Shown: piece after piece, positions 1,587-61,866 of the stretch
Numbering within the stretch: position 1 is the stretch's first letter
Layout: every line of letters starts with the position of its first letter
NCBI RefSeq assembly: GCF_964355755.1
Contig: NC_092671.1
Coordinates: 4,599,001-4,663,000, forward strand
Direction: 5' to 3'
Origin: Antedon mediterranea
Taxonomy: Eukaryota > Echinodermata > Crinoidea > Comatulida > Antedonidae
Length of the DNA stretch: 64,000 nt
Program-made: the position numbers and the translations under genes
The notes under the pieces: generated by a model
Database searches by the model: none
Told to the model about the DNA's origin: nothing
The model's input: the letters and a program-made list of their open reading frames with translations, nothing else

Positions 1587-2140
1587 TATTACAGTATTCA
1601 CAGAAAAACTGAAAATCCATATAATTGTACAAACTATTACGGATCTAGAAGGAGCACCCAATCCACTTCTTTGAAACCAGTAAGATCTACAAATTGCCAT
1701 ATAGCGTTCAACAGAAAGCCAGAAAATTGTTAAAAAGGCTGCAAGTATAGCACTAAAAGGAAGGTAACCTTGAAGTCCACAATCCAATTGCTTTCTACAT
1801 CATCAATACTATAATTTGATATCGGGATAAGTTCCTTAAAATTTCTCATTTCAATGGGCGTTGCAATTAAAAATATCGTATCAGCTATTGCCAAGTTTGC
1901 TAGATAAACGTACACTGATGTTCGTAGTTTACTTACTATAACGATAAATATCATTATGTTGCCGACAATACCAAAAAATATCACAATATGAATTGCATAC
2001 ATAAACACCATCTTTTCAACATCTGTATTCAGGAACATATCAATGATATCATCATATTGACTCGTATTAAACGTCGAATTCCCGTATTCAGAGTCCGGTA
2101 CATCATAAAATGATAAGTATTTTCTCTTGAATCTGACATC
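1587..2140 (-). pseudogene. 7TM receptor pseudogene (alpha-1), cut by the YR element
   Basis: N-terminal half of a class A GPCR: N-terminal tail, TM1 (VGNIMIFIVIVSKL), TM2 (LANLAIAD), TM3-TM4 with SVERYMAICR and IIWIFSFSVN. The homology stops at 1587, in the loop after TM4, where the retroelement begins. It is also broken in two other places. The initiating ATG near 2140 is out of frame with the body, and a frameshift near 1785 splits ECL1/TM2 (downstream of 2038) from TM3. No C-terminal half is present in the window. The closest relative is the alpha-2 copy at 23214-24060. TM3-TM4 resembles the gamma genes at 13517 and 28686. Confidence 0.85.
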
Positions 2141-3822
2141 TTATTATTATTGAAAATGTTTACATTCATACTCTCTTCTCTCAGTTCAATTCTCAGTTCT
2201 ACCAATACAATAATTGAACTACTAATGTAGGCCTAATACCGGTTGGGAAGGTTACATTGCAATTCTTACTATATACACTAACTGGAAACTCCAACTCAAC
2301 GAAAGCTTATCTGAAAGCATCATGGGCTACGTTGTTATTATTATATATATTTTCTAAACAATAACCACCTATATCGATATTTTTGGCAATTTATTCCATT
2401 ACCTTCATAAAGTCCGGTCAATAATTGTTGTTTTTGTGATCCCACTTTTGTAGTGATTAATTTTGTTGCAGCTGTTTTCCTGGAACTTAATGATAATGTT
2501 TAAATTGTAGCACCACCAACACAGCATCATTGTTTTCGACATCGTCGTCAAAATCATCATCATCACCACCATCATCGTCATCATTATCATTGACTTTCAA
2601 ACAATTACTACGAGAATAAATGAGCAATTGTTTTATTGAGTGCAGAAATCAATGTAAACAGCATCATTACTTATTGGTAATGCAATTAATCTGCTTAATA
2701 TTTAATAATAATTAATTATGATTCATAATTCATTATTTTCCTTAGAATAATTACTTATTAATCCGTAAATAAATGAGTTAACATGACGCCAGCATATGTG
2801 TAAAAAAAAACCGAGTGCTTATCTGAAAGCTTCGTATAGTAGGTAATATCGTTATTAATGTATCAGAATATTTTTTTAAAACGAACCCATTTATTTTTTT
2901 AAATTTTGCTATGAAAAATATAAGTACCTAAGCAGGAATGAAAGTAACTACAACAATCACACAGGTTCAGCGTAAAACATTGGCAGGCCTACAAGTTTCT
3001 CTAACTATTAGTTACCGTGTGTTCAGCGCACAACATTTGTACAAGTTTCTATACCTAAAGTGAAAGCGAGTTCAGCATCAAAAAAATGGTACAAGTTTCT
3101 AATATCTATAATAGTGACATTGAATTTAGCGTAATTGTACAGACAATAATTTCTGAATCTATAGCAAGTTCAGAGTGAAACAAATGTAACTTTCTATAAC
3201 ATTGAGTTATGCATAAAACAATTGGTACAAGTTTCTATAACTGTTGACAGTGAATGTGTAAAACATTAGTACAAGTTTATATAACTTGTGTACATACATA
3301 GATATAATGACAGTAAAACAATTGGAACAGTATATCATTTTATAGCTTGTCCACGCCGGACAATCTACTACCGTATTAGGCCTAATGTTTCTTTACTCTG
3401 AAATTATTGACTACATCCTTCCGCACAATAGAGTACAATACTTTGGTGTGTATCAACTACAATATTATTTACAATGAAAGTTGCTTTCATTTTATGATGC
3501 AAGGAATAAGACAATGGAACATAGCCAAAGAAATAATAGCCTACAACAAAAACAAAAATTATGTAGATTTTACAAAGTAATATTTGTAAACATTAATTGA
3601 ACAAACGTTTACATATATAAATGGATTACTAAATCAAATTTATAAACTGTCAGATAACGTTTAAAAGAAATTGTGAATATAGCCAATAGTAAAAGTAAGA
3701 AATCTCACGTTTGTAGCGAGATTGTTGAAGCTAGTAAATACAAAATTAGATTTACAATTCTGAAAAAGAAGTTTAAAACTTAATCTATTGTATATTTATT
3801 AATATACCTAATGGTAATAATT
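2141..3822. repeat. Duplicated spacer module, copy 1
   Basis: Non-coding spacer between alpha-1 and beta-1. It recurs at 7805-11690 (interrupted by a transposon) and 24061-25609. It contains a CAT/CAC-rich patch (about 2540-2592) and a run of degenerate ~60-bp repeats built on 'acaagtttct' and 'gttcagcg' (about 2960-3320). I see no gene in it; the small ORF at 2405-2590 is a translation of the CAT-rich patch. Confidence 0.75.
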
Positions 3823-4799
3823 TTATTTATTATCTACTAATCTTTTTCTGAAGAAGACATCAACAAATGCCTGTCTAAAACTTTCATTAACTACATTGTA
3901 TATCAAAGGGTTTATAGACGAATTTATATATGTTAAAAACCAAAAAATATTCGATCCAAGAATATCAAACAAGTACATAATGCCAAATACATACACACAC
4001 TGGTGTAATGCAGAGAACATAAACAGTAACTGTCACAATAAATGTCCACAATATTTTCCTCTCAGATTTTGAACGTGGGTCCGTCTCGCATGGATTTGGC
4101 ACCGTGATGTTCTGAGATTTTTTTTAAATCATAAGGAAACATCCACAATTAGCAATATAGTCACTGTAAATTGTAGAATCCAAGACATTGTACAAAGTTT
4201 TTCGTAGCTTTGTTTAATAGTACATACAGTTGCATGGTTTGAGATATCATACATATCAGACCAAGCAAATATAATTGTATTCACAGACAAAATGAAAATC
4301 CATATAATTACACATACTTTCACAGATCTTGTGGGAGAACCAAATTCACTTGTTTTAAACTGATAAGGTCTACAAACTGCCATATAACGTTCAACAGAAA
4401 GCCAAAAAATCGTTAAAATGGCTACAAGCGCTGCACTACAGGAAAGTAAGTTAGCATTCCACACCACCAATTCCATTCTTCATCATAAATCGTATAAGGT
4501 ATTAGAACAAAATCCTCACCTTGTCCGATTTCAAAGACGGATATAATTAAAAACAATACATAAGCTATTGCCAAATTGGCTAGATACACGTACACTGATT
4601 TGCGCAGTTTACTCACTATTACGATAAATGTCATTATGTTTCCGATCATACCAAAGGCGGTCACAATATGAATCACATTTTTAAACACCATCTTCTCAAA
4701 ATCTCTCCGTAGGAACATATCTATGACAGCATCATACTGACTGGTGTTGAACATTGAATTCCCGTGTTCATAAACCGGTTCACCTTCTGAAATTGACAT
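3823..4799 (-). pseudogene. 7TM receptor pseudogene (beta-1)
   Basis: Decayed duplicate of the intact beta-2 gene at 11691-12734. The start codon (4799, MSISEGEPVYEHGNS) and TM1-TM2 are intact. A one-base deletion in TM3 near 4440 ends the frame. A second open segment (4129-4476) carries TM3 (SVERYMAVCRPYQF), TM4 and TM5, but about 30 bp of ECL2 are missing (the Y-R-Y-R-A-T to W-P-D-M-Y stretch is collapsed) and another deletion removes the end of TM5. The last segment (3823-4020) has the end of TM6 and TM7 (NPLIYNVVNESFRQAF) with part of ECL3 deleted. At least three disabling lesions are present, so it cannot encode a receptor. Confidence 0.9.
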
Positions 4800-5607
4800 T
4801 TAAATATTTAGATATGTTGTTTTCTGCTTCGACAAAATTAAAACAGCAACCAACGACGAATGGAATACCAATTCGCGGGGTAACTAAATTTGCTGTTGAC
4901 GTGTTAAAAATAGGCCTACTGTTGCAAAGATTACCACTTTTGTGGGTTACTAAAATGCAACTAAAGATGTTTAAAACGTTTACACCACGACTGTACCAAG
5001 TTAATCTGGGAAACGATTTGCTAAAAACAAAAAACGGACGTAAACTGTGTGACCTTTGAACTTAGTTCATTTTATAAACTATGTACAGGTATATGATCAC
5101 AAGTTACCACAAAACTTAAAACAGTACTTCTTTCCCTTTTCTTTTAATTTTACTGCAGAAAACGTCACATCACACGTGCAGGTAAGTATTGACCAATAAT
5201 ATAACAAGAGACGACTTGAACGATAATATGAATTCTTATTCTTCGCAAACAAATCTGCTTCTTTCTCTAATCAACGCAATATCTGAGTTGCGTGTAATTG
5301 TATTCAGTGGTAGTTAATATATAATTCCGTGTAGAAATTTCCTTTTTAAAGAAATATCATCTCTTCTAGCTATATGTCTAAAACATCGTAAGTGTCAGTG
5401 AGTTGATTTTGTTCAGCGGGGTTTTCTTTGCAAATATTTCTACATCAGTTATTTGCATACAGATGAATAGCATTCTACGTAAACGCCATAATCAGTCAAA
5501 CATTATTTTTTATCAAGCTTCCAAGTTTCATACCGCAGCAAAAGATGTGAATATTATTATTTAGCGATAACGATGATACGTACCAATTAATCATAAAATA
5601 CATCATT
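4800..5607. other. Intergenic spacer between beta-1 and gamma-1, duplicated at 12735-13516
   Basis: About 0.8 kb carrying the beta-1 5' flank and the gamma-1 3' flank. It aligns almost end to end with 12735-13516. The 101-residue ORF at 4754-5059 is the antisense of the receptor N-terminus and is not a gene. I see nothing else in it. Confidence 0.6.
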
Positions 5608-6663
5608 TTATTTCCTTCGAATTTTCTTGTAGAAAACGTCAACAAATGCTTGTCTAAAACTTTCATTCACTACATTATATATTAAAGGATTTACAGATGA
5701 ATTAAACAACGATCCCGTACGAGAAATTGAGGGCCAAACTGCATCGGATTCAAGAATATTAAAAAAGTATAGTATTGTACACACAATATACGGTGATATG
5801 CATACAAAATAAACTATGACTGTCACAAAAATTGTCCAGAGTATTTTTTTCTCAGATTTAGAACATAAGTTGGTTTCACATGAAGTCGGCACGATTTTGC
5901 TTGACTTTCTTAATGAATAAAACATGAGCAAATATAAAACTAACATAATCACAATTAACACCATAAAAATCGTAAATTGCAGTGTCCACAAAATTCTACA
6001 AAGTTTATAGTAGGTTGGCTTAATAAGACATATAGTTGAACGATTTGAGATACCTCTATACATATCTGGCCAAGGAAAATTGACGGTTGCTCGATACTTG
6101 TAAACAAATACTACAGCATTCACCGGAAAACTGAAAATCCATATAATTGTACAGACTATTACTGATCTCGAGAGAGTACCAAACTTACTTTCTTGAAACT
6201 GATAAGGTCTACAAACTGCCATATAACGTTCAATGGAAAGCCATAAAATGGTTAAAATGGCAACATCTGCAGCAATAAAAAGGAGGTAAGCTGGTAGTCC
6301 ACACAACACATTCTTTTGTACATCATCAATTATGGTATACTTTTTTGGCAATAGAATTAGTTCCTTATGTGTGCTCATATCAATGGGTGACACGATTAGA
6401 TATAACGTATCAGCTATTGCCAAATTGGCTAGATACACGTACACTGATTTGCGCAGTTTACTTACTATTACAAAAAATGCCATTATGTTGCTGATAATAC
6501 CAAAAGCGATGATAATATTGATTACATAATTAAGCAACATCATCTCAAAATCTCTGTCCAGGTACATACGAATGACATCATCATATTGGCTCGTGTTAGA
6601 TGTTGAATTCATGTATTCAGATTCCGGTAAATGATATGATGTATTGTCAGCTGAAATTGACAT
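5608..6663 (-). CDS. Class A 7TM receptor (gamma-1), intact, 351 aa
   Basis: Single-exon rhodopsin-type GPCR, presumably at the plasma membrane; the ligand is unknown. The N-terminus (1-42) has sequons at N7, N19 and N23. TM1 is about 43-67, with SNI in place of the usual GN. TM2 is 76-97 (LANLAIAD, D85), TM3 119-150 (C121; ERY 145-147), TM4 166-188 (W175), ECL2 has C212, TM5 is about 225-252 (no proline), TM6 271-303 (CISP 288-291, so no toggle W), TM7 311-335 (NPLIY 325-329), then helix 8 and a basic tail. The start is the Met aligned with all gamma paralogs. An ATG 33 bases upstream opens only a 7-codon uORF. A TATA box lies ~240 bp upstream and a leader element between the two. It looks functional. 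Overall style is peptide-receptor-like. Confidence 0.92.
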   Translation of the reverse strand: MSISADNTSYHLPESEYMNSTSNTSQYDDVIRMYLDRDFEMMLLNYVINIIIAFGIISNIMAFFVIVSKLRKSVYVYLANLAIADTLYLIVSPIDMSTHKELILLPKKYTIIDDVQKNVLCGLPAYLLFIAADVAILTILWLSIERYMAVCRPYQFQESKFGTLSRSVIVCTIIWIFSFPVNAVVFVYKYRATVNFPWPDMYRGISNRSTICLIKPTYYKLCRILWTLQFTIFMVLIVIMLVLYLLMFYSLRKSSKIVPTSCETNLCSKSEKKILWTIFVTVIVYFVCISPYIVCTILYFFNILESDAVWPSISRTGSLFNSSVNPLIYNVVNESFRQAFVDVFYKKIRRK

Positions 6664-6789
6664 CTTGCTATTTATTTATGTCCACATTCATATTCTCATC
6701 ATCTCCTCAATTACATATAAGCAATCAATCAAAATAAATTGTATTCCATAGAAAATATAAAGCTAATAAAAGTAAACAATTACGATGGT

Positions 6790-6850
6790 ATGGTAGAGTT
6801 ACTCACTTGTGGAGTGACCACCACGGAGTGATAAAACACTGTCCGTTTAC
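6790..6850 (-). promoter_or_regulatory. Single copy of the gamma leader element (GGAGTGATAAAACACTGTC)
   Basis: Single unit containing 'gtggagtgaccaccacggag' and then 'tgataaaacactgtc' on the + strand. It lies between the TATA box and the start codon of gamma-1, so it is probably transcribed as 5' UTR. Matching single units occur at 27495-27550 and 29872-29905, and about ten tandem copies at 14642-15185. Confidence 0.5.
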
Positions 6851-6900
6851 AAAGTAGTGGTCTGCGGCAATACGGTAAAGATGATCAACCAGTTAACACC

Positions 6901-6911
6901 ACTTTATATAA
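6901..6911 (-). promoter_or_regulatory. TATA box of gamma-1
   Basis: TTATATAAAGT on the minus strand, about 240 bp upstream of the gamma-1 start codon. The same word in the same context (CCACTTTATATAATAA on the + strand) sits upstream of gamma-3 (27607-27617) and gamma-4 (29966-29976). Conservation across three paralogs supports a core promoter role. Confidence 0.55.
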
Positions 6912-7049
6912 TAAAGTCATCTGGAAAAAGTTTTGTTTACTAAAAACCGGAACTGACTATTACACGCGGTCAACGGCTCCTACTTAGCAATACTACCTGA
7001 CCACGTTTATTCACGTATAGGCCTCAGTAACAAAGTTTATCTGATCTGG

Positions 7050-7270
7050 TAAATGGTGTTTCTATTATAAGGCGGGCGTGCCAATTGCAAACAAATTTGT
7101 AATGAGACGTACATACGATTTCTGGTAAATAATTTAATCTTTTTTAAAACTAAGTGGAGATTATTAATGTAGAGATTGATACGGACATTGCCTAATGCTA
7201 AAGTGAATCGTTTATTGTACCTTTGTATAGGAATAGTGTATTGTGTGTTACGCAAATGAACTTATTATAG
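7050..7270 (-). promoter_or_regulatory. Conserved upstream block, gamma-1
   Basis: A ~220-bp block containing, on the + strand, 'ctattataaggcgggcgtg' and 'ccaattgcaaac'. It is shared with 27749-27970 (gamma-3) and 34683-34875 (delta-1). It contains a GC-box-like CACGCCCGCC (minus strand) beside a TATAATAG. The remaining spacer, 7271-7804, holds no gene I can support. Confidence 0.45.
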
Positions 7271-7862
7271 CGCCAACATATTACACAAACTTGTACAGAA
7301 ACAAAAATGTTTTTTGTACACATCATATCATTAGTGGAAACTCCAAGTAACCCATTTTTACTTATAACTTTGTTTGGAATATCAAATTCTCCAATTGTGC
7401 TGTAATAAACTTGTGTGTTTGGGTGTCCATGTAGGGCCTACAGGGACATTGTTAAGAATGCCCCCTAAATGGTTCATGACTCGCATCTGAAATTGTCTAC
7501 TCCGCCGACGTCATAACCAATAACGAAACTAAGACATATATTGGTATGACGGGTGGGCAGTTTAAAACTATAGGTTTAACAATCACAAGAAATCTTTCAA
7601 AAAAGAAACGTACAGTAAAGAATCCGAGCTCTCAAAGTACGTATGGTCTTTGAAAAGTAATGACGTAATGTTCACAATTAAATGGAAAGTAATTAAATAT
7701 TCCTCCACTAAGAACGCCGCTTATGGGCGTTGTAGTCTTTGTCTAGATGAAAAGCTATGTATTCTAAATGCAAACAAAACAAATTACACCATTTCTAGGT
7801 ACATTTTGTGATCCCACTTTTGTAGTGATTAATTTTGTTGCAGCTGTTTTCCTGGAACTTAA

Positions 7863-10307: not shown

Positions 10308-10930
10308 TTAATGATAATGTTTAAATGGTAGCACCACCAACACAGCATCATTGTTTTCGTCATCGTCGTCAAAATCATCATCATCACCACCATCATCGTC
10401 ATCATTATCATTGACTTTCAAACAATTACTACGAGAATAAATGAGCAATTGTTTTATTGCGTGCAGAAATCAATGTAAACAGCATCATTACTTATTGGTA
10501 ATGCAATTAATATTTAATAATAATTAATTATGATTCATAATTCATTATTTTCCTTAGAATAATTACTTATTAATCCGTAAATAAATGAGTTAACATGACG
10601 CCGGCATATGTGAAAAAAGGTGCTTATCTGAAAGCTTCGTATAGTAGGTAATATCGTTATCAATGTATAAGAATATTTTTAAAAACGAACCGATTTATTT
10701 TTTGTTAATTTTGCTATCAAAAATATAAGTACCTAAGCAGGAATGAATGTAACTACAACAATCACACAGGTTCAGCGTAAAACATTGGAAGGCCTAAGAG
10801 TTTCTCTAACTATTAGTTACCGTGTGTTCAGCGCACAACATTTGTACAAGTTTCTATACCTAAAGTGAAAATGAGTTCAGCATCAAAATATGGTACAAGT
10901 TTCTATATCTATAATAGTGACATTGAATTT

Positions 10931-11010
10931 AGCGTAATTGTACGTAATTTAGCGTAATTGTACGTAATTAAGCGTAATTGTACGTAATTTAGCGTAATTG
11001 TACGTAATTT
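10931..11010 (+). repeat. 20-bp tandem repeat, four copies
   Basis: Four consecutive units of AGCGTAATTGTACGTAATTT (one has a T-to-A change). The same spacer has one unit in copy 3 (about 25137) and a degenerate one in copy 1, so the array expanded after the module duplicated. Confidence 0.85.
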
Positions 11011-11690
11011 CTGAATCTATAACGAGTTCAGAGTGAAACAAAGGTAACATTTTCTAAAACCAGTGACAATGAGTTATGCATAAAACAATTGGTACAAGTT
11101 TCTGTTGACAGTGAGTGTGTAAAACATTAGTACAAGTTTATATAACTTGTGTACATACTTCATATAGATTATAATGACAGCAAAACAATTGGAACAGTAT
11201 ATCATTTTTATAGCTTGGCCACGCCGGACAATCTACTATTAACCCTTTCTTTACTTCTGAAATTATTTACCACATCCTTCCGCACAATAGAGTAGGCCTA
11301 CAATACAATACTACAATATTATTTACAATGAAATTTACTTTCATTTTATGATGCAAGGAATAACACAATGAAACATAAGCAAAGAAAGAATAGCCTACAA
11401 CCTTTCGTAATACAAACATTATATAGATTTAATAAAATAATATTTTAAAACAATAATTCAACAAACGTTTACAGATCTAAATGGATTACTAAATCAAATT
11501 TATAAACTGTCAGATAACGTTTAAAAGAAATTGTGAGTATAGCCAATAGTAAAAGTAAGAAATCTCACCTTTGTAGCGAAATTGTTGAAGCCAGTAAATA
11601 CAAAATTAGATTAGAAAAAGAAGTTTAAAACTAAATCTACTGTATAATATTTAGTAAGCTTAAGTAAGTGTCACCTAAATGGTGGTAATT

Positions 11691-12734
11691 TTATTTATTA
11701 TCTACTAATCTTTTTCTGAAGAAGACATCAACAAATGCTTGTCTAAAACTTTCATTAACTACATTATATATCAAAGGGTTTATAGACGAATTTATATATA
11801 TTCCAAAACGACACATAGTGAAAAACAAAAAAATATTCGATCCAAGAATATCAAACAAGTACATAATGCCAAACACATACATTGGTGTAATGCAGATAAC
11901 ATAAGCTGTAACTGTCACAAAAACCGTCCACAATATCTTCCTCTCAGATTTTGATCGTGGGTCAGTATCGCCTGGATTTGGCACCGTGATGTTCTGGGAT
12001 TTTCTTAAAGAATAGATCATAAGGAAACATACAACTAAGATAACCACAATTAGCAATACAGTGACTGTAAATTGTAGAATCCAAGAAATTGTACAAAGTT
12101 GTTCGTAGCTTTCCTTAATAATACATACAGTTGCACGATTTGAGACATCACTATACATATCAGGCCATGGAAAAGTGATGGTTGCTCGATACCTATAAGC
12201 AAATATTACTGAGTTCACAGACAAACTGAACATCCATATAATTGCACATACTTTCACGGATCTTGAGAGAGAACCAAATTTACTTGTTTTAAACTGATAA
12301 GGTCTACAAACTGCCATATAACGTTCAACAGAAAGCCAAGAGATCGTTAAAATTGCTACAAGCGCTGCACTACAAGGAATGTAAGTTAGCATTCCACACC
12401 ACCAATTCCTTTCTTCATCATAAATCGTATAAGGTATTTGAACAAAATCCTCACCTTGTCCGATTTCAAAGACCGATATAATTAAAAACAATGCATCTGC
12501 TATTGCCAAATTGGCTAGATAAACGTACACTGATTTGCGCAGTTTACTAACTATTACGATAAATGTCATTATGTTTCCGATAATACCAAAGGCGGCCACA
12601 ATATAAATCACATTTTTAAACACCATCTTCTCAAAATCTCTCCGTAGGAACATATCTATGACATCAACATACTGACTGGTGTTGAACGTTGAATTTCCGT
12701 GTTCATAAACCAGTTCACCTTCTGAAATTGACAT
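11691..12734 (-). CDS. Class A 7TM receptor (beta-2), intact, 347 aa
   Basis: Single-exon GPCR and the only intact beta gene. The N-terminus has sequons at N14 and N18. TM1 is about 40-64 (GNIMTFIVIVSKL), TM2 71-92 (LANLAIADALFL, D80), TM3 111-142 (C113; ERY 137-139), TM4 158-180 (W167), ECL2 has C204, TM5 is about 218-242, TM6 266-294 (CITP 281-284, isoleucine at the toggle position), TM7 304-327 (NPLIY 319-323), then helix 8 NESFRQAF and a short basic tail. ICL3 is short and polar (about 245-265). The start aligns with beta-1. Beta-1 and beta-3 are broken duplicates of it. Ligand unknown. The upstream flank (12735-13120) is shared with beta-1 and shows no ORF I trust. Confidence 0.92.
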   Translation of the reverse strand: MSISEGELVYEHGNSTFNTSQYVDVIDMFLRRDFEKMVFKNVIYIVAAFGIIGNIMTFIVIVSKLRKSVYVYLANLAIADALFLIISVFEIGQGEDFVQIPYTIYDEERNWWCGMLTYIPCSAALVAILTISWLSVERYMAVCRPYQFKTSKFGSLSRSVKVCAIIWMFSLSVNSVIFAYRYRATITFPWPDMYSDVSNRATVCIIKESYEQLCTISWILQFTVTVLLIVVILVVCFLMIYSLRKSQNITVPNPGDTDPRSKSERKILWTVFVTVTAYVICITPMYVFGIMYLFDILGSNIFLFFTMCRFGIYINSSINPLIYNVVNESFRQAFVDVFFRKRLVDNK

Positions 12735-13516
12735 TATTTAAATATTCAGAATTGTTGTTTTCTGCTTCGACAAAATTAAAACAGCAACCAACGACGAATG
12801 TAATACCAATTCGCGAGGTGGCTAGATTTGTTCTTGACGTGTCAAAAATAGGTCCACTTTTGTGGGTTACCAAAATGCAATTAAAGATGTTCAAATGTTT
12901 ACACCACGACTGTACCAAGCTAATCTGGCAAACGATTTGCTACAAACAAGAAACGGACGTGAACTTTGTGACCTTTGAACTTAGTTCATTTTATAAACTA
13001 TATGTACAGGTATATAATCACAAGTTACCACAAAACCTAATACAGTACTTCCTTTCCATTTCTTTTAAATTTACTGCAGAAAACGTCACATCACACGTGC
13101 AGGTAAGTATTGACCAATAACAAGAGACGGCTTGAACGATAATATGAATTCTTATTCTTCGCAAACAAATCTGCTTAGGCTTTCTCTAATCAACGCAACA
13201 TCTGAGTTGCGTGTAATTGTATTCATTAGCAGTTAATATATAATTCCGTGTAAAAATGTCCTTTCAAAAGAAATACCATATCTTCTAGCTATATGTCTAA
13301 AACATCGTAAGTGTTAGTGAGTTGATTTTGTTCAGCGGGGTTTTCTTTGCAACTATTTTTAAATATAGGCATCAGTTATTTTCATACTCCCATTATGATT
13401 AGTAGCATCCTACGCCAACACCATAATCAGTCAAACATTATTTGTTATCAAGCATCCAAGTTTCACCGCAGCAAAAGATGTGAATATTATTTAGCGCTAA
13501 CGATGATACGTACCAA
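12735..13516. other. Intergenic spacer between beta-2 and gamma-2
   Basis: Aligns with 4800-5607 and, over its last ~140 bp, with 26156-26297. The ORF at 12689-13120 starts antisense to the beta-2 N-terminus and lacks any recognisable domain, so I do not call it. No other feature seen. Confidence 0.55.
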
Positions 13517-47596: not shown

Positions 47597-47840
47597 TTTC
47601 TTTGTTTTTTTTTTAATATTTCCAAACTAAAAATTGCAAGTAAAATGTTGTTTCTAATTAAAGATACATGTAATCACTGAGTGGACTGACTGGATCGCAA
47701 TAAAGAATTGATGCGCTTCTTGTGTGTACGTACACAGTTCAGAATTAATAATGTAATTTGCTGCAATGTTCGAAACGTATTATTACTCCAGGGAGTAAGG
47801 GAAAAGTAACTACTTAATTAAAAGACGTATAATATGACGT
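47597..47840. other. 5' flank of delta-2
   Basis: No recognisable element shared with the gamma upstream blocks. Confidence 0.4.
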
Positions 47841-49972: not shown

Positions 49973-50161
49973 TCAAGCACAAAATATAAAAAATATCATA
50001 TAGCCTATGATTTTAATGGTTAATGATAAACATACATTTATACACAACATAATGTTGCCGATAATACCAAACGGGAACACAATATTAGTCACACATTGAA
50101 ACAGGTGGAGTAATTTGTCAAAATCATAATAATAATATAGACTCGTGTTATACATTGAACT
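49973..50161 (-). pseudogene. 7TM receptor relic, TM1 part, left of a foldback element
   Basis: Encodes MYGSSMYNTSLYYYYDFDK, then TM1 (FPFGIIGNIML), after which the receptor homology is lost near 50048. The upstream end abuts the 9-bp target duplication at 50162-50170. The beginning of the same reading frame continues at 52125-52154 on the other side of the element. Confidence 0.75.
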
Positions 50162-50170
50162 CCCGTACAT

Positions 50171-50430
50171 GGTTCTAGGACACCTACCCCCTAGACAGTT
50201 TCCCCCCGGATATTTACCACCCGGACAACTACCCCCTTAGGACAACTAACCCCCGGACAACTACCCCCCGGACAACTACCCCCTTAGGACAACTACCCCC
50301 TTAGGATAACAACCCCCCGGACAACTACCCCCCGGACAACTACCTCCTTAGGACAACTACCCCCTTAGGATAACTACCCCCCGGATAACTACCCCCCGGT
50401 CAACTACCCCCCGGTCAACTACCCCCCCCC
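50171..50430. repeat. Left arm: C-rich minisatellite (~16-bp units)
   Basis: Alternating GGACAACTACCCCCC and TTAGGACAACTACCCCC units. Complementary to the right arm. Confidence 0.9.
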
Positions 50431-51414: not shown

Positions 51415-52115
51415 TGTTGAATGGTCTGGGTGGTAGTTGTCCGTCCGGGGGTAGTTGTTCTAAAGGGATAGTTTTCTGGGTGGTAGTTGTCCAGGGGTTA
51501 GTTGTCCTACGGAGGTAGTTGTCCTAAAATATTATTTGCCCTCGGAGTATTGTCCAGGTCCAGGAGGTAGTTGTCCTACGGGGAGTATTGTGTCAGAGGT
51601 AGTTATCCGCGGGGTAATTACCCGGGGGGGGGGGGTTGTCAGGGGGTAATTGTTCCTAGGGGGTAATTGTCCGGGGGGAATTGTTCCTAGGGGGTAATTG
51701 TCCGGGGGGTAGTTGTCCAGGGGTTAGTTGTCCTACGGAGGTAGTTGTCCTAAAAGATTATTTGCCCTCGGAGTATTGTCCAGGAAGTAGTTGTCCTACG
51801 GGGAGTATTGTGTCAGAGGTAGTTGTCTGGGGGGTAATTATCCGGGGGGTAATTGTCCGGGGGGTAATTGTCCGGAGGGTAATTGTCCGGGGGGTAATTG
51901 TTCCTAGAGGGTAATTGTCCGGGGGGTAGTTGTCCGGGGGGTAGTTGTCCTAAGGGGGTTGTTGTCCTAAGGGGGTAGTTGTCCGGGGGGTATTTGTCCG
52001 GGGGGTAGTTGTCCTAAAGGGGTAGTTGTCCTAAGGGGGTAGTGGTCCAGGTGGTGGTTGTCCGGGGGGTAGTTTTCCGGGTGGTAAATGTCCAGGGGGT
52101 GAATATCCGGATACG
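51415..52115. repeat. Right arm: G-rich minisatellite
   Basis: About 700 bp of GGTAGTTGTCCGGGGGG / GTCCTAAGGGGGTAGTTG units, longer and more varied than the left arm. The 77-residue ORF at 51681-51914 is just this repeat translated. Confidence 0.9.
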
Positions 52116-53036: not shown

Positions 53037-54095
53037 TTATGAACTATTGACTAATGCAAATAAATTATTTAATTTCTTGCGAATTCTTTTATAGAAAACG
53101 TCAACAAATGCTTGTCTAAAATTTTTATTTACCACGTTATATATCAGAGGATTCACAGCTGAATTTAAATATATACCAAGACGAAGAATATTTTCTACCC
53201 AAAAACTGATACTGATTTTCCTATAACCTACTCTAAATACCATAAACGGCGTCATACAAGCAACATAAACTGTAACTGTCACAACAACTGTAACGAATGT
53301 TTTTTTCTCAGATTTAATTCTGGGATCAGTTCCTTGAAGATTTGGTGCCGGTACGGCGGTAATGGTATGGGATTTTCTTAATGAATAAAGCATAAACGAA
53401 TATAAACATATCACAATGACAATTAGTATCACGCTGAAAGTAGCGTGTATCTTTAAATACATGTTGTACTCAAACTTATGAACGCACCATGTTAGTTTAT
53501 TTGAGACACCTCTATACTTATCAGGCCAAGGAAGAATGACGGATACTGGTTTGTAATAAAAAAACACTACAGCACTCACAGATAAACTGATAATCCATAA
53601 AGTAACACAGATTTTTACGGATCTTGAAAGAGTACCAAATCCACTTGTTTGAAACCAATAAGGTTTACAAACTGCCATATAACGTTCAATAGAAAGCCAG
53701 AAAATCGTTAATATAGCCACAAGAAAAGCACACTCAGGTAGATAAATCAAGTAAACGCAGAAAAAATTATCTATTTCTTCAATCTCAGTAGAAAATTGAG
53801 AGAAGTTTTTTTCGCCTTTCCATATTCCAATAGGCGCTGTAATTAGAAACAACGTATCAGCTATTGACAAATTGGCTAGATACACGTACACTGACTTGCG
53901 CAATTTACTTACTATAACGATAAACGTCGTTATGTTGCCGATTATGCCAAGAACGACAACAATATGAATCGCATACTTAACCCAATATCTCTCAAAATCT
54001 CTATTCAGAAACATATCGATGTAATCATCATATTGACCCGTTTTCAACGTTGAGTTTCCGTATTCAGCTACCGGTATACCTTGTGATGTTGTCAT
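53037..54095 (-). CDS. Class A 7TM receptor (epsilon-3), intact, 352 aa
   Basis: Single-exon GPCR. The ORF extends 45 codons further upstream (to 54230), but I start at MTTSQGIPVAEYGNST because it aligns with the start of epsilon-5. Sequon at N14. TM1 about 42-64 (GNITTFIVIVSKL), TM2 71-92 (LANLSIAD, D80), C113, TM3 to ERY 137-139, TM4 W167, ECL2 C204, TM5 about 215-239, TM6 264-292 (CMTP 280-283), TM7 NPLIY 315-319, tail KKLNNLFALVNSS. ECL1 is longer and acidic (EIEEIDN) compared with the gamma genes. The 5' flank carries a GGGCGTGAACATTGC motif and a CCAAT block. It looks functional; ligand unknown. Confidence 0.92.
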   Translation of the reverse strand: MTTSQGIPVAEYGNSTLKTGQYDDYIDMFLNRDFERYWVKYAIHIVVVLGIIGNITTFIVIVSKLRKSVYVYLANLSIADTLFLITAPIGIWKGEKNFSQFSTEIEEIDNFFCVYLIYLPECAFLVAILTIFWLSIERYMAVCKPYWFQTSGFGTLSRSVKICVTLWIISLSVSAVVFFYYKPVSVILPWPDKYRGVSNKLTWCVHKFEYNMYLKIHATFSVILIVIVICLYSFMLYSLRKSHTITAVPAPNLQGTDPRIKSEKKTFVTVVVTVTVYVACMTPFMVFRVGYRKISISFWVENILRLGIYLNSAVNPLIYNVVNKNFRQAFVDVFYKRIRKKLNNLFALVNSS

Positions 54096-55438: not shown

Positions 55439-55574
55439 TCATGACTTGAAAGATCGACTGCTGCACACCCGATAGAACCGAAAAATCTTTAAAAATGTTT
55501 GACCGAGAAACCGAGATGTGTTTATTAAGAAGTGGGCTACTTCAATAAAATGTATTATCATTATTTGCAAAAAA
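55439..55574. other. Flank resuming after the hAT-like element
   Basis: 'ttcatgacttgaaagatcga' continues the sequence interrupted by the element and matches 49330-49400. Confidence 0.5.
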
Positions 55575-55790
55575 GTTAATGAATTCTTTGTAGTCGTATA
55601 ATTAAACCATTATTTGTGTTACAGAATACCTTCCAAGAATTACAGCTTTTATAATACTTAATACTTTTACAAAGATATAAATGACATCTGATAGATAAGA
55701 AGATGTAACAAAACACTTACAAATAATTCATTATCTCCAAGCATACGAATATAATTATATTGAATAGTAAACAATCATCAGATAATTTAA
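55575..55790. repeat. Shared flank block, copy 2 of 3
   Basis: See 47841-48055. Here the 'gttaatgaattctttgtag' site is intact; in copy 3 it is split by a LINE end. A MITE-family fragment follows at about 55985-56105. Confidence 0.75.
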
Positions 55791-56279
55791 TTATAAAGTT
55801 TTCTAAAAAACGATTCACGGTATAGCGTAATTAATAATATTGTGTTATTGAAAGAGCACTTTGATATTAATTGCTTTTTAAACTTTAAATTATTCATTAT
55901 TTTAGATGGTACAGTAATAATATCAATAGACAAGTTTCATGTTTGGAAATTGAAAACCATGATGGCTATATATATAATAATATGGTAATTTTAGTATTAA
56001 ACTAAGCGGAAAACCGTGTAGCTTGTCCCACGTAGAATCTGTATCTATCCTGAGCGGAAACTGCCGCTCCGCGTTGTCCGTCGTCTGTGTAAATTTAATT
56101 GGCATTAATGCTCAGCAAGAGTGGAAAAAAGGGAGCATTTTCTTGGGTTCGCGCCGCATTCGTCTGGTGAAGAAAAGACTCTGAATCCAACACACTACTT
56201 AATGTCTGGTTCTACAAAAATGATTTTCTTAATGATATGATTATTTAATTACTAACTAATCGCTAATATACTTTTTCTT

Positions 56280-57304
56280 CCGGATCCTGCAGAAAAAAAC
56301 GTCAACAAATGCTTGTCTAAAACATTCATTTATCACACTATATATTAAAGGATTTAAAGATAAATTTTAATAAATTCCTAAACGACAAACATTTAAAAAC
56401 CAAGATACATCCGATCCAATGATATTATAATAATATAATATTCCTAACACATACAAAGGTGTCATGCAGAAAACGTAAATTGTGACTAACAAAAACTGTC
56501 CAGAATATTTTCCTCTCCGATTTAGAACGTGTGTCGGTCTCGCGAGAATTTTGCATAATGTTCCGGGATTTTCCTAAAGAATCTGCGAATAAAAAACTAC
56601 AATAACAATATTTAACACTATAGAAATAGTAAATTGCATCGTCCACACAATTATGCATAGTTTATAGTAGCTAGTTTTAATAATACAAATAGTTGCACAG
56701 TTTGATATACCTCTATACATATCAGGCCAAGGAGAATGACGAACACTCGTTCGTAAAAGACAAATTGCATACTATTCATCGACAAACTAAAAGTCCATAT
56801 AACCGCACAGATCTTTATAGATCGTGAGAGAGTACCAACTCCACTTGTTTTAAACCAATAAGGTCTACAAACTGCCATATAACGTTCAATGTAAAGCCAC
56901 ACAATTGTTAGAAGGGCTATATGCACGGCAATAAAAAGACAGTAACTTAGCAGTCCACACACCCAGTTCCTTGCTACTTCATCTGTCGTATATGGTACCG
57001 GAATGAAATCATCAGTTGTCCATAAGATAATAGGCGCAACAGTTAAATTTAACGTATCAGCTATTGCCAAATTGGCTAAATACACGTACACTGGTTTGCG
57101 TAGTTTACTCACTATTACGATAAACGTCATTGTGTTTCCCACAATGCCTAAAGCGACCAAAGCAGGAACACTGTTAAAACGTAAAATCTTCTCCCAGTCA
57201 CCATACAGGAATATATCGATAAAATGATCGTATTGACTTATGTTAGTAGTTGAATTCCCGTATTCAGATACATTATATAATGTATTGTCGGTTGAAAGCG
57301 ACAT
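56280..57304 (-). pseudogene. 7TM receptor pseudogene (delta-3)
   Basis: Starts at 57304 (MSLSTDNTLYNVSEYGNST). TM1-TM4 are open to about residue 195 (TM2 LANLAIADTLNL; TM3 IERYMAVCRPYWF). A one-base deletion near 56735 (ECL2, before WPDM) breaks the frame. The TM5/ICL3 part is in another frame (56425-56658) with a 7-base loss at the end of TM5 and a 2-base loss in TM6 (about 56487). In TM7 a TTA codon has become TAA (about 56368). The duplicate at 58977-59743 is intact at the TM7 codon, so these lesions arose after duplication. Confidence 0.88.
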
Positions 57305-58104
57305 AGTGTGTTTGATTTAACCTATCGAAATAACGTGTGACAACTGACAACCTTTTAGGTTAACCAGTGTCATAAACACAGATGCCGCTACACACACGAT
57401 CAATTTGATATTAATCCGCAACACGAAATGTGGTGTTCCGTACCAGGAGTTATATAACAAGAATGTACGTTAAAATATGAACGCAGAAAGTGTATTAAAT
57501 AAAACAAATCAAATGTTTATACTGCTGTTATTATGTCTATATTGTGTAATGTTGAATTTGATATGAAAAAAAACCCTAAAATTTAGATCATATGATGACG
57601 TCACAACATCCAATATTTAAATATTTTACATGAATTCATATCTACAACTCATCGAATAAAATGAGGGAACACCGTCCATCTCGAGGAGCCCGTTCTCAAG
57701 CACTTTTAAGCTTCCAAATGAGGTCGTAAAGGTGTGATGGCGCTAGTTACACTCCGTTATGCATGATTAAATAATAGAATGACGAAGGTTGGAATTTTAA
57801 TATTTTCAATACCTTACTTATGAGAAACCAACATAAATTGTAACTACCAGAAAAATCGTCACTGTTTCGTCTCGTACTTGTCACCAGTAGCGGTAGGCCA
57901 TTATGGTTTACAAAAACCGCGTTCGATTTTACTATTTGTTCTTTTTTAATTTATGCCGATCATTCTACTAGGTAAATTTAACATTGAATATACCGGTGAT
58001 AAAACATCTACCATCCCTACAATCGAGTTATACTATTGAAACCGAGATGTGTTTATTAGGAAGTGGGCTACTTAAATAAAACGTGTTATCATTATCTGCA
58101 AGGA
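57305..58104. other. 5' flank of delta-3 and intergenic
   Basis: No shared promoter block recognised. The word 'ccgatcattctactag' (about 57957) reappears at the truncation point of delta-4 (about 59751). Confidence 0.4.
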
Positions 58105-58114: not shown

Positions 58115-58293
58115 AGTTAATTGAAATTGTTTATGGCTTGCCGATCTATGTTTTATATATATATATATATATTTTATCTGTATTTTATTGTTAACCGTTT
58201 TTGATGTTGTATTGTTTTATGTTTCAAACCTGTTAGTGGCGGTATTTATCGCTGTTGGTTTTGATTGAATAAAATAAAATAAAATAAAAATAA
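58115..58293 (+). mobile_element. LINE 3' end, 5'-truncated, TSD AATGAA
   Basis: ~180 bp ending in 'gttggttttgattgaataaa' and an (AAAAT)n tail, with a (TA)n tract inside. Flanked by AATGAA (58109-58114 and 58294-58299). The empty site is at about 55579-55585 in the duplicate. A tail-repeat end with 5' truncation is typical of LINE insertion. Confidence 0.65.
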
Positions 58294-58510
58294 AATGAAT
58301 TATTCGTAGTTGTAGTATTAAACCATTCTTTGTGCTACAGAATAACTTCCAAGAATTACAGCTTTCATGATAATTAATACTTTTACAGAGATATAAATGA
58401 CATCTGATAGATAAGAAGATGTAATAAAACACTTACAAATAATTCATTATCTCCCACTAGCTTGCGAATATAATTATATTGAATAGTAAACAATCAACAG
58501 ATAATTTAAT
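58294..58510. repeat. Shared flank block, copy 3 of 3
   Basis: Continues the 55575-55790 duplication. 58511-58976 carries on in parallel with 55791-56279, including the MITE-family fragment (58735-58830). No gene. Confidence 0.75.
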
Positions 58511-58976
58511 TATAAAGTTTAAAAAAAAAACGATTCCCTGTATAGCGTAATTATTAATATTTTGTTATTGAAAGAGCACTTTGATATTAATTGCTTTTTA
58601 AACTTTAAATTATTCATTATTTTAGATGGTACAGTAATAATATCAATAGACAAGTTTCATGTTTGGAAATTGAAAACCGTGATGGCTATATATATATAAT
58701 AATATGGTAATTTTATTATTAAACTAAGCGGAAAACCGCGTAGCTTGTCCCACGTAGAATCTGTATCTATCTTGAGCGGAAACTGCCGCTCCGCGTTGTC
58801 CGTCGTCTGTGTAAATTTAATTGGCATTAATGCTCAGCAAGAGTGGTGGAAAAAGGGAGCATTTTCTTGCGGTTCGCGCCGCATTCGTCTGGTGAAGAAA
58901 AGACTCTAAATCCAACACACTACTTAATGTCTGGTTCTACAAAAATGATTTTCTTAATGATATGATTATTTAATTA

Positions 58977-59743
58977 CTAACTAATCGCTAGTATACTTTT
59001 TCTTCTGAATCCTGCAGAAAAAACGTCAACAAATGCTTGTCTAAAACATTCATTTATCACACTATATATTAAAGGATTTAAAGATGAATTTAAATAAATT
59101 CCTAAACGACAAACATTTAAAAACCAAGATACATCCGATCCAATGATATTATAATAATATAATATTCCTAACACATACAAAGGTGTCATGCAGAAAACGT
59201 AAATTGTGACTGTAACAAAAACTGTCCAGAATATTTTCCTCTCCGATTTAGAACGTGTGTCGGTCTCGCGAGAATTTTGCATAATGTTCCGGGATTTTTC
59301 TAAAGAATAGAACATCTGCGAATATAAAACTACAATAACAATATTCAACACTATATTATTATAGAATTATTATAAATTGCATCATCCACACAATTATGCA
59401 TAGTTTATAGTAGCTAGTTATAATAATACAAATAGTCGCACGGTTTGAGATACCTCTACATATCAGGCCAAGGAAGAATGACGAACACTCGTTCGTAAAA
59501 GACAAATTGCATACTATTCATCGACAAACTAAAAGTCCATATAACCGCACAGATCTTTATAGATCTTGAGAGAGTACCAAATCCACTTGTTTTAAACCAA
59601 TAAGGTCTACAAACTGCCATATAACGTTCAATGGAAAGCCACAAAATTGTTAGAAGGGCTACATCCACAGCAATAAAAAGCAAGTAACTTAGCAGTCCAC
59701 ACACCCAGTTCCTTGCTACTTCATCTGTCGTATAGGGTACCAT
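58977..59743 (-). pseudogene. 7TM receptor pseudogene (delta-4), 5'-truncated
   Basis: Duplicate of delta-3. TM7/TM6/ICL3 are open at 58977-59351 (NPLIYSVINECFRQAF; FCMTPLYVLG). TM5 carries a short duplication ('attattatagaattattata'). ECL2 has a 2-base deletion near 59455. TM3-TM4 are open at 59456-59743 (SIERYMAVCRPYWF). Everything upstream of ECL1 is missing: at about 59745 the sequence jumps to one beginning 'ccgatcattctactag'. Confidence 0.88.
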
Positions 59744-59859
59744 ACCATACCGATCATTCTACTAGTCAGCTTAATAATACATCACTGTACTATACTGCGT
59801 ATTATTTAGACGTTCTTTTAGCATGTTACATGCGCTTACATTCAACATAACTCCTTATA

Positions 59860-60000
59860 TTATATTCCTTGACAAACTGATAGGATCTACAAAATGCCAT
59901 ATAACGTTCAACGGCAAGTTAATCGTTAAAATGGCTACATGCACAGAACTATTAGAAAAGTAATTTTACACACCCAGCTGTGTCTTTCTACTTTCTACTT
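59860..60000 (-). pseudogene. 7TM receptor relic (TM3 region)
   Basis: ~140 bp spanning ICL2 to ECL1: 'ctacaaaatgccatataacg' (ERYMAFCRS-like) and 'gctacatgcacagaactatt', closest to delta-1 (34080-34170). Too damaged to translate. Confidence 0.7.
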
Positions 60001-60329
60001 TCTACATTTCAATACGATAAGATTGTATCATGATATTTAGAGCATTATGTGTCTAAAGTTTGGTACACACGAACGACAATTAATGATTTGCCAATGACGC
60101 ATAATAAATCACATAGTTATTTAGACATTTTAAATAACGGATATTTATTAAGGTTGATGATAAAAATCGATTGCATTAATTTCATGGTGTACAAATAAGC
60201 TTAGAACCCAAATCTCGGTACTGTATCTTATTATTCCCAGTATCGTAAGAATACTCGCCGTTCAAAACCAATGGAAATGTCTACAACAATTTACAAAATC
60301 TTTCGAACTAAACTAATAATAATAACAAG

Positions 60330-60640
60330 TCATTTAATTTCCTTCGAATTCTGGAATAGAAACGTCGACAAACGCTTGTCTAAAACTTTCATTTACCACA
60401 TTATTTATTTATAGGATTATTAGGATTTACAGAATAATTTACAAATTGTTGATGAATTAAAGAATGAGAGATAAAGCATACTCGGTCTTAATACACAAAT
60501 TGCACTGCAAAATTCATCGATAAAATTAAAATATATGTAACTGCACAAACTTCGAAGAATTTTGAGAGAGTACTTGCTTGCTACATACCGTCCAACGAAA
60601 AGCCAGAAAATTGTAAACAAAATAGCTACAAGAAAATCAA
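60330..60640 (-). pseudogene. 7TM receptor pseudogene (epsilon-4)
   Basis: C-terminal tail and TM7 (60330-60430; a small duplication 'tttataggattattaggatt' disrupts the NPLIY region), then a jump to degraded TM4/ICL2/TM3 (60480-60635). TM5-TM6, TM1-TM2 and the N-terminus are gone. Truncated immediately downstream of the epsilon-5 3' flank. Confidence 0.75.
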
Positions 60641-60804
60641 AAGGGGTTTTCAGTCTAAAAAAACGTTGACGTTTTTAGTTAAACTGTAGTTATTGTGTAC
60701 TTCATGGACACCGTTAAAATTATAACTTTATAGTCAAGTTTTTTTATTCCGATGTTTGCACACATTTTGCAATTTATTTGGGCCTATAACAATTTGTCTA
60801 TTGA

Positions 60805-61866
60805 CTAAACACAATGGTGAAATATGCCATTTAATTTTCTGCGAACTTTCGTGTAGAAAACGTCAACAAATGCTTGTCTGAAACTTTCATTTACTACATT
60901 ATATATCAACGGATTTACAGATGAATTTAAATATACACTAAGACGAAGAGCAAGTACTGCCCAAAAACGTTCAATTATTTCCACATAACCTATGCTATAT
61001 ATTATTATAAATGGTGTCACTAAAACAACATAAACTGTGACTGTCACAAAAACAGTCAGGAATGTTTTCTTCTCAGATTGAATTCTGCAATCATTTCCTT
61101 GAGGAGGTGGTACTTGTGCAACAGCAGTGGTTCTAGACTTTTTTATTGAATAAATCATAAGCGAATATAAAAATATCACAATCACAATTAACGTCAGCAT
61201 GATAATAGCACTTATCTTTAAGGAAATATAATATTGTGTTACATAACCTGTCTTAATAACACACAAGGTTACTTTATTTGAAACACCTTTATACATATCA
61301 GGCCAAGGGAGAATGATGGATATTCGTTTGTAATACACAAATACTATGCTGTTCAACGACAAACTGAAAATCCATATAACTACACAGACTTTAACAGATC
61401 TTGAGAGAGTACCAAATCCACTTGTTTGAAACCGAAAAGGTCTACAAACTGCCATATAACGTTCAACAGAAAGCCAGAAAATTGTGAATATAGCCACAAG
61501 TAAAGCACACTCAGAAAAGTAAACCGAAACGCAGAAAAAGTTAACTATTTCTTCAATCTTAACGGGCAATTGAAAAATATCATCATCGTTAGACAATTCA
61601 ACCGGCGACACAATAAGAAGCAACGTATCAGCTATTGCCAAGTTGGCTAGATATACGTACACTGATTTGCGCAGTTTACTCACTATTACTATACATGTCA
61701 TAATGTTGCCGATAATACCAAAAGCGATCACAATATAAATCAAAAACGTAAGCACCATCTCTTCAAAATGTCTGTGCAGGAACATGTATATGTATTCATC
61801 ATATTGATTCGTGTTAAACGATGAGTTTCCGTATTCAGATACCGGCATACCATGTGACCTTGTCAT
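60805..61866 (-). CDS. Class A 7TM receptor (epsilon-5), intact, 353 aa
   Basis: Single-exon GPCR starting MTRSHGMPVSEYGNSS; sequons at N14 and N18 (NTN is not a sequon). TM1 about 40-64 (GNIMTCIVIVSKL), TM2 71-92 (LANLAIAD, D80), C112, TM3 to ERY 135-137, TM4 W165, ECL2 C202, TM5 about 214-240, ICL3 proline-rich (QVPPPQGN), TM6 about 264-293 where the usual C-x-x-P reads LVTP (282-285; cysteine absent), TM7 NPLIY 318-322, tail KLNGIFHHCV. Acidic ECL1 (NDDD, KIEEI), as in epsilon-3. 5' motifs at 62180-62264. Looks functional; ligand unknown. Confidence 0.92.
   Translation of the reverse strand: MTRSHGMPVSEYGNSSFNTNQYDEYIYMFLHRHFEEMVLTFLIYIVIAFGIIGNIMTCIVIVSKLRKSVYVYLANLAIADTLLLIVSPVELSNDDDIFQLPVKIEEIVNFFCVSVYFSECALLVAIFTIFWLSVERYMAVCRPFRFQTSGFGTLSRSVKVCVVIWIFSLSLNSIVFVYYKRISIILPWPDMYKGVSNKVTLCVIKTGYVTQYYISLKISAIIMLTLIVIVIFLYSLMIYSIKKSRTTAVAQVPPPQGNDCRIQSEKKTFLTVFVTVTVYVVLVTPFIIIYSIGYVEIIERFWAVLALRLSVYLNSSVNPLIYNVVNESFRQAFVDVFYTKVRRKLNGIFHHCV

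Follow-up and report, generated by a model that had tools for sequence, protein, structure and literature searches.

A one-direction tandem array of peptide-receptor-like class A GPCRs with mosaic copies in the feather star Antedon mediterranea

The window analysed here, a stretch of 64,000 nucleotides from the genome of the crinoid Antedon mediterranea (contig NC_092671.1, positions 4,599,001 to 4,663,000), holds a tandem series of class A GPCR genes and their remnants. Tblastn with 37 family proteins as queries delimits 24 receptor intervals, and 1127 of 1127 HSPs lie on the minus strand, which bears out the single orientation claimed in an earlier, sequence-only reading of this DNA. Eight complete 7TM ORFs are present among the following features (coordinates within the window).

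1548-2169, minus: receptor pseudogene, gamma type, N-terminal part (87% DNA identity to the 23286 locus)
3817-4799, minus: beta-type receptor pseudogene whose frame changes near 4425-4446 (tblastn, DNA similarity)
5608-6663, minus: complete receptor ORF, alpha type, mosaic
11691-12734, minus: complete receptor ORF, beta type
13517-14617, minus: complete ORF, alpha type, Q in place of the TM6 proline
16420-16606, minus: 3' part of split receptor gene (flank comparison)
16607-23212, plus: Pao/BEL LTR element inside the receptor gene, with its LTRs at 16607-17068 and 22745-23212
23213-24069, minus: 5' part of split receptor gene, gamma type (tblastn, flank comparison, DNA similarity)
25574-26201, minus: receptor pseudogene, beta type (tblastn, DNA similarity)
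26298-27398, minus: complete receptor ORF, alpha type
28686-29771, minus: complete receptor ORF, alpha type, mosaic
33431-34447, minus: complete 7TM ORF of epsilon type that has lost its upstream start and PWPDM loop
38381-38476, minus: receptor C-terminal remnant (tblastn, best E 1.3e-5)
41161-41790, minus: receptor pseudogene (tblastn)
44445-44615, minus: weak possible remnant (one HSP, E 0.006)
46104-46178, minus: weak possible remnant (one HSP, E 7e-4)
46528-47620, minus: receptor pseudogene, late frame change (tblastn)
48082-48458, minus: receptor fragment, delta type (tblastn, DNA similarity)
49997-50206, minus: weak N-terminal remnant (best E 4.8e-5)
53037-54095, minus: complete receptor ORF, delta type
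56268-57316, minus: receptor pseudogene, frame change near 56732
58992-59758, minus: receptor pseudogene, a duplicate of the locus at 56268 (94% identity)
59871-60022, minus: weak receptor remnant (tblastn)
60361-60620, minus: weak receptor remnant (tblastn)
60805-61866, minus: complete receptor ORF, delta type

Two of the intervals, 16456-16689 and 23286-24055, were considered as separate loci and rejected as such, since the sequences flanking the Pao/BEL element abut in the neighbouring gene at 26298, where the alignment of the left flank ends at 26451 and that of the right flank starts at 26449. Consequently, 16420-16606 and 23213-24069 are one gene, and the 24 intervals leave 23 receptor units, consisting of 18 firm loci and five weak remnants (44445, 46104, 49997, 59871 and 60361); the earlier observation is confirmed, with corrections of this kind. 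Broken copies make up 10 of the 18 firm loci, or 15 of all 23 units, either of which is consistent with the 'about 60%' of dead copies first proposed. The coding region is a single exon in all eight complete window copies, as judged from ORFs, to which introns in the UTRs are invisible, and of 29 family copies taken from elsewhere in the genome, 27 have one ORF of at least 330 aa; for the coding region, the claim of single-exon receptors stands. Spurious ORFs can be ruled out, because all eight complete frames pass the Pfam 7tm_1 model (E 6.4e-23 to 1.7e-26) above its curated cut-off of 30.5 bits.

The array extends beyond the window, which covers about one sixth of it, to span 372 kb (C2:4311982-4684250) with at least 63 merged loci, 61 on the minus and two on the plus strand. 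This count derives from 84 places found by two protein searches (70 and 14), merged at 400 bases, and it is a lower bound because the searches scored only part of their candidates (147 of 978 in the PF00001 search, 112 of 501 and 115 of 513 in the protein searches). Merging at 400 bases also gives 15 units in the window against the 18 firm loci found by tblastn, and so the merged count is too low; for example, it fuses the gene at 26298 with its adjoining pseudogene.

All of the copies included in our trees, of 46 and 40 sequences, sit on one long branch, with support for the family node of 81 and 41 respectively, rising to 100 when it is joined with a pair at C2:8.9 Mb; labels in these trees may shift on re-rooting, and two copies with short ORFs (L019 and L028) were excluded from them and from the dN/dS estimates. 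Members of other arrays of the same genome (C3:4.8, 31.6 and 5.9 Mb) group elsewhere in the tree. The one-branch topology leads us to reject an array assembled from several unrelated receptor families and agrees, in both trees, with the proposal that the copies are one related family.

Within the family, duplication has operated on blocks. Duplicated stretches of 29 kb and 13 kb are 100% identical, and may be recent duplications or artefacts of the assembly. An alpha-beta block is recognisable from DNA matches between 2487-6697 and 10308-14623 (86%), 2285-3633 and 24287-25618 (90%), and 5460-7394 and 26176-28106 (88%), and a gamma match links 1810-2289 to 23708-24174 (87%). Of the three alpha-beta-gamma modules originally described, the alpha-beta part does occur three times, but gamma accompanies just two of them; a division into five subfamilies would fit the DNA similarities loosely.

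Two receptors in the window, those at 5608 and 28686, are clear mosaics. In identity windows across copy 5608, columns 0-510 are 94-100% identical to the copy at 26298, compared with 76-89% to that at 13517, while the relationship is reversed across columns 540-870, where 13517 and L013 are nearest, at 94-99% for 13517 against 81-85% for 26298; the last 250 or so columns have no single best parent. Copy 28686 switches at about nucleotide column 204 (codon column 68 or so), the share of informative sites that side with L013 rather than 26298 being 7% to the left of this point and 91% to the right. A family-wide scan from which six near-identical copies were left out placed 139 of 10932 triples above the maximum of six column shuffles, although the weaker mosaics among these may be false because column shuffles ignore lineage-specific selection. 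Taken with the tandem blocks and the pseudogenes, such segment swaps uphold the view that turnover is rapid, and we regard both the array and its turnover as real with near certainty.

The complete copies carry the usual marks of class A receptors in invariant alignment columns and motifs: N1.50 and D2.50, the E/DRY and NPxxY motifs, and the cysteines that pair TM3 with ECL2. ERY, NPxxY and the paired cysteines are kept in all eight. The TM6 CWxP motif is incomplete, having its proline in 34 and its cysteine in 22 of 35 family copies but its tryptophan in none; this tryptophan is typical of class A, though not obligatory. The copy with Q at the TM6 proline (13517-14617) is one of 35, and it and the copy at 33431-34447, which has an in-frame stop at its relatives' start position and no PWPDM loop, look weakened, making two of the eight complete copies. 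Extracellular loop 2 bears the motif PWPDMYxG, found at 55 sites in the genome against none in the control, of which PWPDM is kept in 31 of 35 copies. Neither 'PWPDM' nor 'WPDMY' was found in literature text, a negative of little weight, since papers seldom give protein sequences in a form that a text search can reach, and 104 pattern stretches in viral contigs included no relative. The nearest solved structures, among the best 60 of 756 and the best 60 of 300 PDB matches, are the NMUR2, opioid, galanin, orexin, TRHR, ghrelin, motilin, neurotensin, neuromedin-B and nociceptin receptors, with E-values of about 1e-12 to 2e-21. A distant relative, L052, matches GHSR best, but melatonin, serotonin, adenosine and dopamine receptors are among its matches as well. 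Judged by sequence likeness, the array family belongs to a peptide-receptor-like branch marked by PWPDMYxG, and this branch appears closer to hormone receptors than to smell receptors.

Selection on these genes is purifying overall and looser in the outer halves of the TM helices. Pairwise dN/dS ranges from 0.33 to 0.79 (median 0.51) and lies below 1 in all 583 of the 595 pairs with dS between 0.05 and 1. In eight close pairs, which are not fully independent since two share the sequence L013, the outer TM halves have a dN/dS of 0.68 and the inner halves 0.37 (CI of the difference 0.14-0.63), the TM limits being taken from a poor AlphaFold2 model of the eight window proteins (pLDDT 49); the same low-confidence model places ECL2 strands at 198-204 and 217-223, a possible beta-hairpin of the peptide-receptor kind. 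The pattern is not simply one of a fast exterior, because TM6 (0.25) and the N-terminus (0.37) are slow, while TM3 (0.84) and TM5 (0.91) are fast; the ratio in ECL2 is 0.38. Nor is the contrast specific to this family, since among eight control receptor pairs from the same genome the outer halves also exceed the inner in L045/L046 and L064/L065; it is reversed in L042/L043 and L042/L061 and about equal in L062/L063, while L051/L052 and L047/L050 give no usable outer ratio and L043/L060 are nearly identical.

The structure of the array has analogues elsewhere. Vertebrate odorant receptor clusters combine intronless coding regions with tandem birth-and-death, pseudogenes and gene conversion, and the array resembles them in all of these, gene conversion being the proposed one; unlike odorant receptors, its members have a shifted TM2 proline and do not match the vertebrate OR Pfam model, which is absent among the eight families matched by the eight proteins at E up to 10, bearing in mind that most matches weaker than about 0.1 are removed by the filters of HMMER. 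Vertebrate peptide receptors provide the best PDB sequence matches and have the conserved loop-2 cysteine in common with the array, which differs from them in its lineage-specific tandem expansion, the loss of the CWxP tryptophan and the PWPDM loop motif. Closer to home, the surreal-GPCRs and OR-like receptors of sea urchin, crown-of-thorns starfish and sea cucumber are likewise lineage-specific tandem arrays of the rhodopsin class under purifying selection, and mostly single-exon, as stated for sea cucumber (PMC5442662, PMC7042368). The 12-gene array described in starfish is bidirectional, whereas the feather-star array runs in one direction at 61 of 63 merged loci.

The earlier suggestion that the array matches the sea-urchin receptor type is unsupported in the form given. 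Four of the six positions of the OR motif LxxPxYxxxxxLxxxDxxxxxxxxP are retained (L 35/35, Y 34/35, L 35/35, D 35/35), but P at -12 occurs in only 4 of 35 copies and P at +9 in none, the TM2 proline preceding its expected place by one residue in 33 of 35. Peptide receptors are nearest among the solved structures listed, the vertebrate OR model does not appear in the listed matches (E up to 10), and the TM6 tryptophan is absent from all 35. One might still suppose that the array belongs to the echinoderm OR-like or surreal-GPCR clade with a drifted motif, given the four retained positions and a shared genomic habit of tandem, mostly single-exon, species-specific expansion (PMC7042368, PMC5442662); according to PMC7042368, the motif is also variably kept among echinoderm clades. 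The scarcity of the first proline, the lack of the second and the separate tree position of the other arrays of this genome speak against it, and we consider it rather unlikely. It overlaps the chemosensory interpretation below; the probabilities attached to the two do not sum to one.

In our model the array would descend from an ancestor of peptide-receptor-like type, in the PWPDM branch, and would have grown within the crinoid lineage. Copies lying in the same direction would misalign, leading to unequal crossing-over that adds and deletes blocks, while gene conversion or intragenic crossing-over would swap the N-terminus or N-terminal half between neighbours; segment swaps would thereby create novel ligand pockets while the core that couples to G proteins stays constant. 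The likeliest use of the array is chemosensory, which seems to us somewhat probable: it would detect many external chemical cues, perhaps peptides, that signal food, conspecifics or settlement sites. More tentatively, crinoids may have built a large chemosensory array out of the PWPDM branch, a branch distinct from that of the OR-like receptors in other echinoderms. New receptors could then arise combinatorially, as same-direction neighbours exchange the N-terminus or the N-terminal half (as far as about TM3/TM4) against the remainder, shuffling pockets on a fixed signalling core.

The similarity to the NMUR2, opioid, TRH, orexin, galanin, ghrelin and neurotensin receptors, and a loop-2 motif kept as if it answered to a shared ligand feature (PWPDM and the low ECL2 ratio), would also suit internal neuropeptide or hormone receptors expanded in this lineage for an endogenous peptide family. 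However, large, partly broken, segment-swapping arrays are unusual among hormone receptors, this one having at least 63 loci, many of them broken, and divergence in the outer TM halves runs at about double the rate of the inner; an internal role is a minority prospect. Birth and death, mosaicism and fast change in the outer pocket also fit immune-type sensors of chemotactic, pathogen or damage peptides in an arms race, yet no chemokine or formyl-peptide receptor occurs among the best 60 of 756 and 60 of 300 PDB matches, and we think this improbable. Slightly less credible still is an array that is mostly dead, with few or no functional members: ten of the 18 firm window loci are broken and, of the eight open frames, two have lost key features, but dN/dS lies below 1 in all 583 pairs counted and the core motifs persist in all eight.

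Tandem receptor arrays are already known in other echinoderms, and it is the crinoid case that is new; among the matches listed in the open-paper literature, there was no report of crinoid chemoreceptors. Crinoids are the first branch among living echinoderms (PMC7351957). If the array is sensory, this would suggest that echinoderm classes drew their chemoreceptor families from different ancestral GPCR branches. The array also offers a clean case of receptor mosaics arising by segment exchange within a one-direction array, and the PWPDM loop motif makes it simple to look for the family in other genomes. Two further features mark the Antedon mediterranea genome as that of a crinoid, and so of an echinoderm: it contains a 12-gene Hox cluster and carries the crinoid L-type SALMFamide.

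The receptor loci of this window form a one-directional array shaped by duplication, decay and exchange of segments. As the sequence-only reading had claimed, every locus is on the minus strand (1127 of 1127 tblastn HSPs). A tblastn search with 37 family proteins gave 24 receptor intervals, two of which are the halves of a single gene, and the earlier count of about 22 loci therefore resolves into 18 firm loci and five weak remnants. Ten of the 18 firm loci are broken, in agreement with the estimate that some 60% of copies are dead.

Features of the window
5608, 11691, 13517, 26298, 28686, 33431, 53037 and 60805: minus strand, starts of complete receptor ORFs (ORF scan)
16607-23212: plus strand, Pao/BEL LTR element (Pfam matches; LTRs)
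16607-17068 and 22745-23212: plus strand, LTRs of this element, 97.4% identical to each other
2487-6697 and 10308-14623: duplicated block, 86% identity (DNA self-comparison)
2285-3633 and 24287-25618: duplicated block, 90% (same comparison)
5460-7394 and 26176-28106: duplicated block, 88% (same comparison)
55570-56999 and 58286-59741: duplicated block, 94% (same comparison)

The eight complete ORFs encode 338-366 aa and all exceed the Pfam 7tm_1 cut-off; two of them look weakened from their sequence, the 33431 copy having lost PWPDM and carrying an in-frame stop where its relatives start, and the 13517 copy having Q in place of the TM6 proline. The split gene holds the Pao/BEL element: when the two flanks of the insertion are mapped on the 26298 gene, the left one runs up to the counterpart of position 26451 and the right one begins at 26449, and the flanking sequence reads as a 5-bp target duplication, ATAAT. 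In the ORF scan the coding region of the element appears as four adjoining ORFs. Three alpha-beta-gamma modules had been proposed; the alpha-beta pair is indeed present in three copies, while gamma occurs only twice (the 1548 and 23286 loci, 87% identical in DNA).

The window lies at C2:4599001-4663000. Whole-genome searches with two window proteins (354 Mb, 18 contigs) extend the array to 372 kb, C2:4311982-4684250, in which 84 places merge into at least 63 loci, an undercount; 61 of the 63 are minus, and the two plus loci are both at the left end. Smaller related groups occur at C3:13.25-13.34, C3:13.75-13.78, C3:9.49-9.55 and C2:8.91-8.93 Mb. In the tree, L026 on C3 and L025 on C2 are sister copies with dS 0.089, and copies therefore also move between chromosomes. 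Outside the window, two tandem duplications (L054-L057) are 100% identical over the lengths compared, C2:4456k/4486k (offset 29069 bases, 5001 nt) and C2:4340k/4353k (offset 13094 bases, 4001 nt); they are either very recent or an assembly artefact.

Two window copies are clear mosaics. Over alignment columns 0-510, windows of the 5608 gene share 94-100% identity with 26298; over columns 540-870 they share 94-99% with 13517, while identity to 26298 falls to 81-85%. Beyond column 870 the gene has no clearly nearest single parent. In 28686 an N-terminus like those of 26298 and 5608 is joined to a remainder like 13517 and another family copy, L013; the switch lies at column 204, and L013 is matched in preference to 26298 at 7% of the informative sites on its left and at 91% on its right (permutation p 0.001, the minimum for 1000 shuffles). 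Among 29 family copies, 28 on C2 and one on C3, 139 of 10932 triples exceeded the maximum of six column shuffles, and the weaker of these cases may reflect uneven selection. The core is constrained, dN/dS being 0.33-0.79 with a median of 0.51 (583 of 595 pairs, with 0.05<dS<1). Outer TM halves reach 0.68 against 0.37 for inner halves in eight close pairs, two of which share L013 (bootstrap difference 0.14-0.63; TM limits set by hand from a low-confidence structure model). The single segments are uneven, with TM3 (0.84) and TM5 (0.91) high, and TM6 (0.25), the N-terminus (0.37) and ECL2 (0.38) low; since controls on other receptor pairs were mixed, this contrast is a supportive sign, short of proof. 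In the mechanism that we envisage, copies in the same direction would misalign and then recombine; with breakpoints close to the beginning of TM1 and around TM4, separate portions of the ligand pocket would be brought together, and a constant intracellular face would stay beneath the recombined pocket.

When placed in a tree beside further receptors from this genome, the family nests inside the PWPDM branch; support for the family-only node is 41 in this tree and 81 in another. PWPDM is present in 31 of 35 family proteins, and PWPDMYxG, directly before the loop-2 cysteine, has 55 genome sites against none in the control (38 in the main array, 16 in related groups on C3 and one in a related receptor on C9). 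With a profile of the eight window proteins, the closest PDB entries are NMUR2, opioid, galanin, orexin and TRH receptors (best E 1.6e-21; best 60 of 756 matches), and with a single window protein NMUR2 and TRHR rank first (best 60 of 300); a distant relative, L052, has the ghrelin receptor as its best PDB match, with some amine, melatonin and adenosine receptors among the others. None of the 35 family proteins has the tryptophan of CWxP in TM6, and the Pfam matches of the window proteins at E up to 10 do not include the vertebrate OR model. The proline following D2.50 stands at +8 in 33 of 35 proteins and never at +9, so that the echinoderm OR motif, as defined in PMC7042368, agrees at four of six positions. 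The family stands apart from sampled members of the C3 arrays at 4.8, 31.6 and 5.9 Mb. These further class A tandem groups (C3:4.81-4.89, 31.55-31.65 and 5.86-5.89 Mb) are possible crinoid counterparts of OR-like receptors.

Tandem, lineage-specific GPCR arrays are described for sea urchin, starfish and sea cucumber in PMC5442662 and PMC7042368, and the crinoid array shares both properties. What appears to be new is the occurrence of such an array in a crinoid, with an origin from a peptide-receptor-like branch, a nearly single direction over 372 kb and clear mosaics; no report of such an array among crinoid chemoreceptors or GPCRs was among the matches listed in the open literature. Judged from sequence, the most probable use of the array is chemosensory, a reading that we favour without great confidence. 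A hormone-type use would be a good deal less probable, and an immune-type use very unlikely.

Other features of the window are a minisatellite at 62458-63576 (26 copies of a 43-bp unit), a GC content of 40.5% in the bin 62001-64000 after 31.8% in the preceding bin, and GGACAACTACCCCCC repeats at 50178-50427 with a complementary repeat about 1 kb on, at 51432-52100. GC over the window is 34.4%; 33.2% is given for Anneissia japonica in PMC7351957. From this, the Hox cluster and the SALMFamide locus described below, the genome is concluded to be that of a crinoid. A tRNA-Asp-like gene at 41018-41089 has the anticodon ATC and is perhaps a pseudogene or SINE-derived. The usual tRNA-Asp anticodon is GTC. 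Elsewhere on C2, twelve contiguous Hox genes (L001-L012, named by reading their homeodomains) occupy about 380 kb at 7827600-8206400, and include anterior, central and four posterior-type genes. Both posterior-most genes are linked to the rest, one of them (L002) in opposite orientation, whereas PMC7351957 describes for A. japonica ten ordered, clustered genes with 11/13b and c on another scaffold. Finally, the pattern of the crinoid L-type SALMFamide, GLRFHKGAPF in PMC9793003, has one genome match and none in the control; this locus (L053, C5 around 24566751-24566779) reads by eye RGLRFHKGAPF-GKR on the reverse strand, which identifies it, by sequence, as the crinoid L-type SALMFamide precursor gene.
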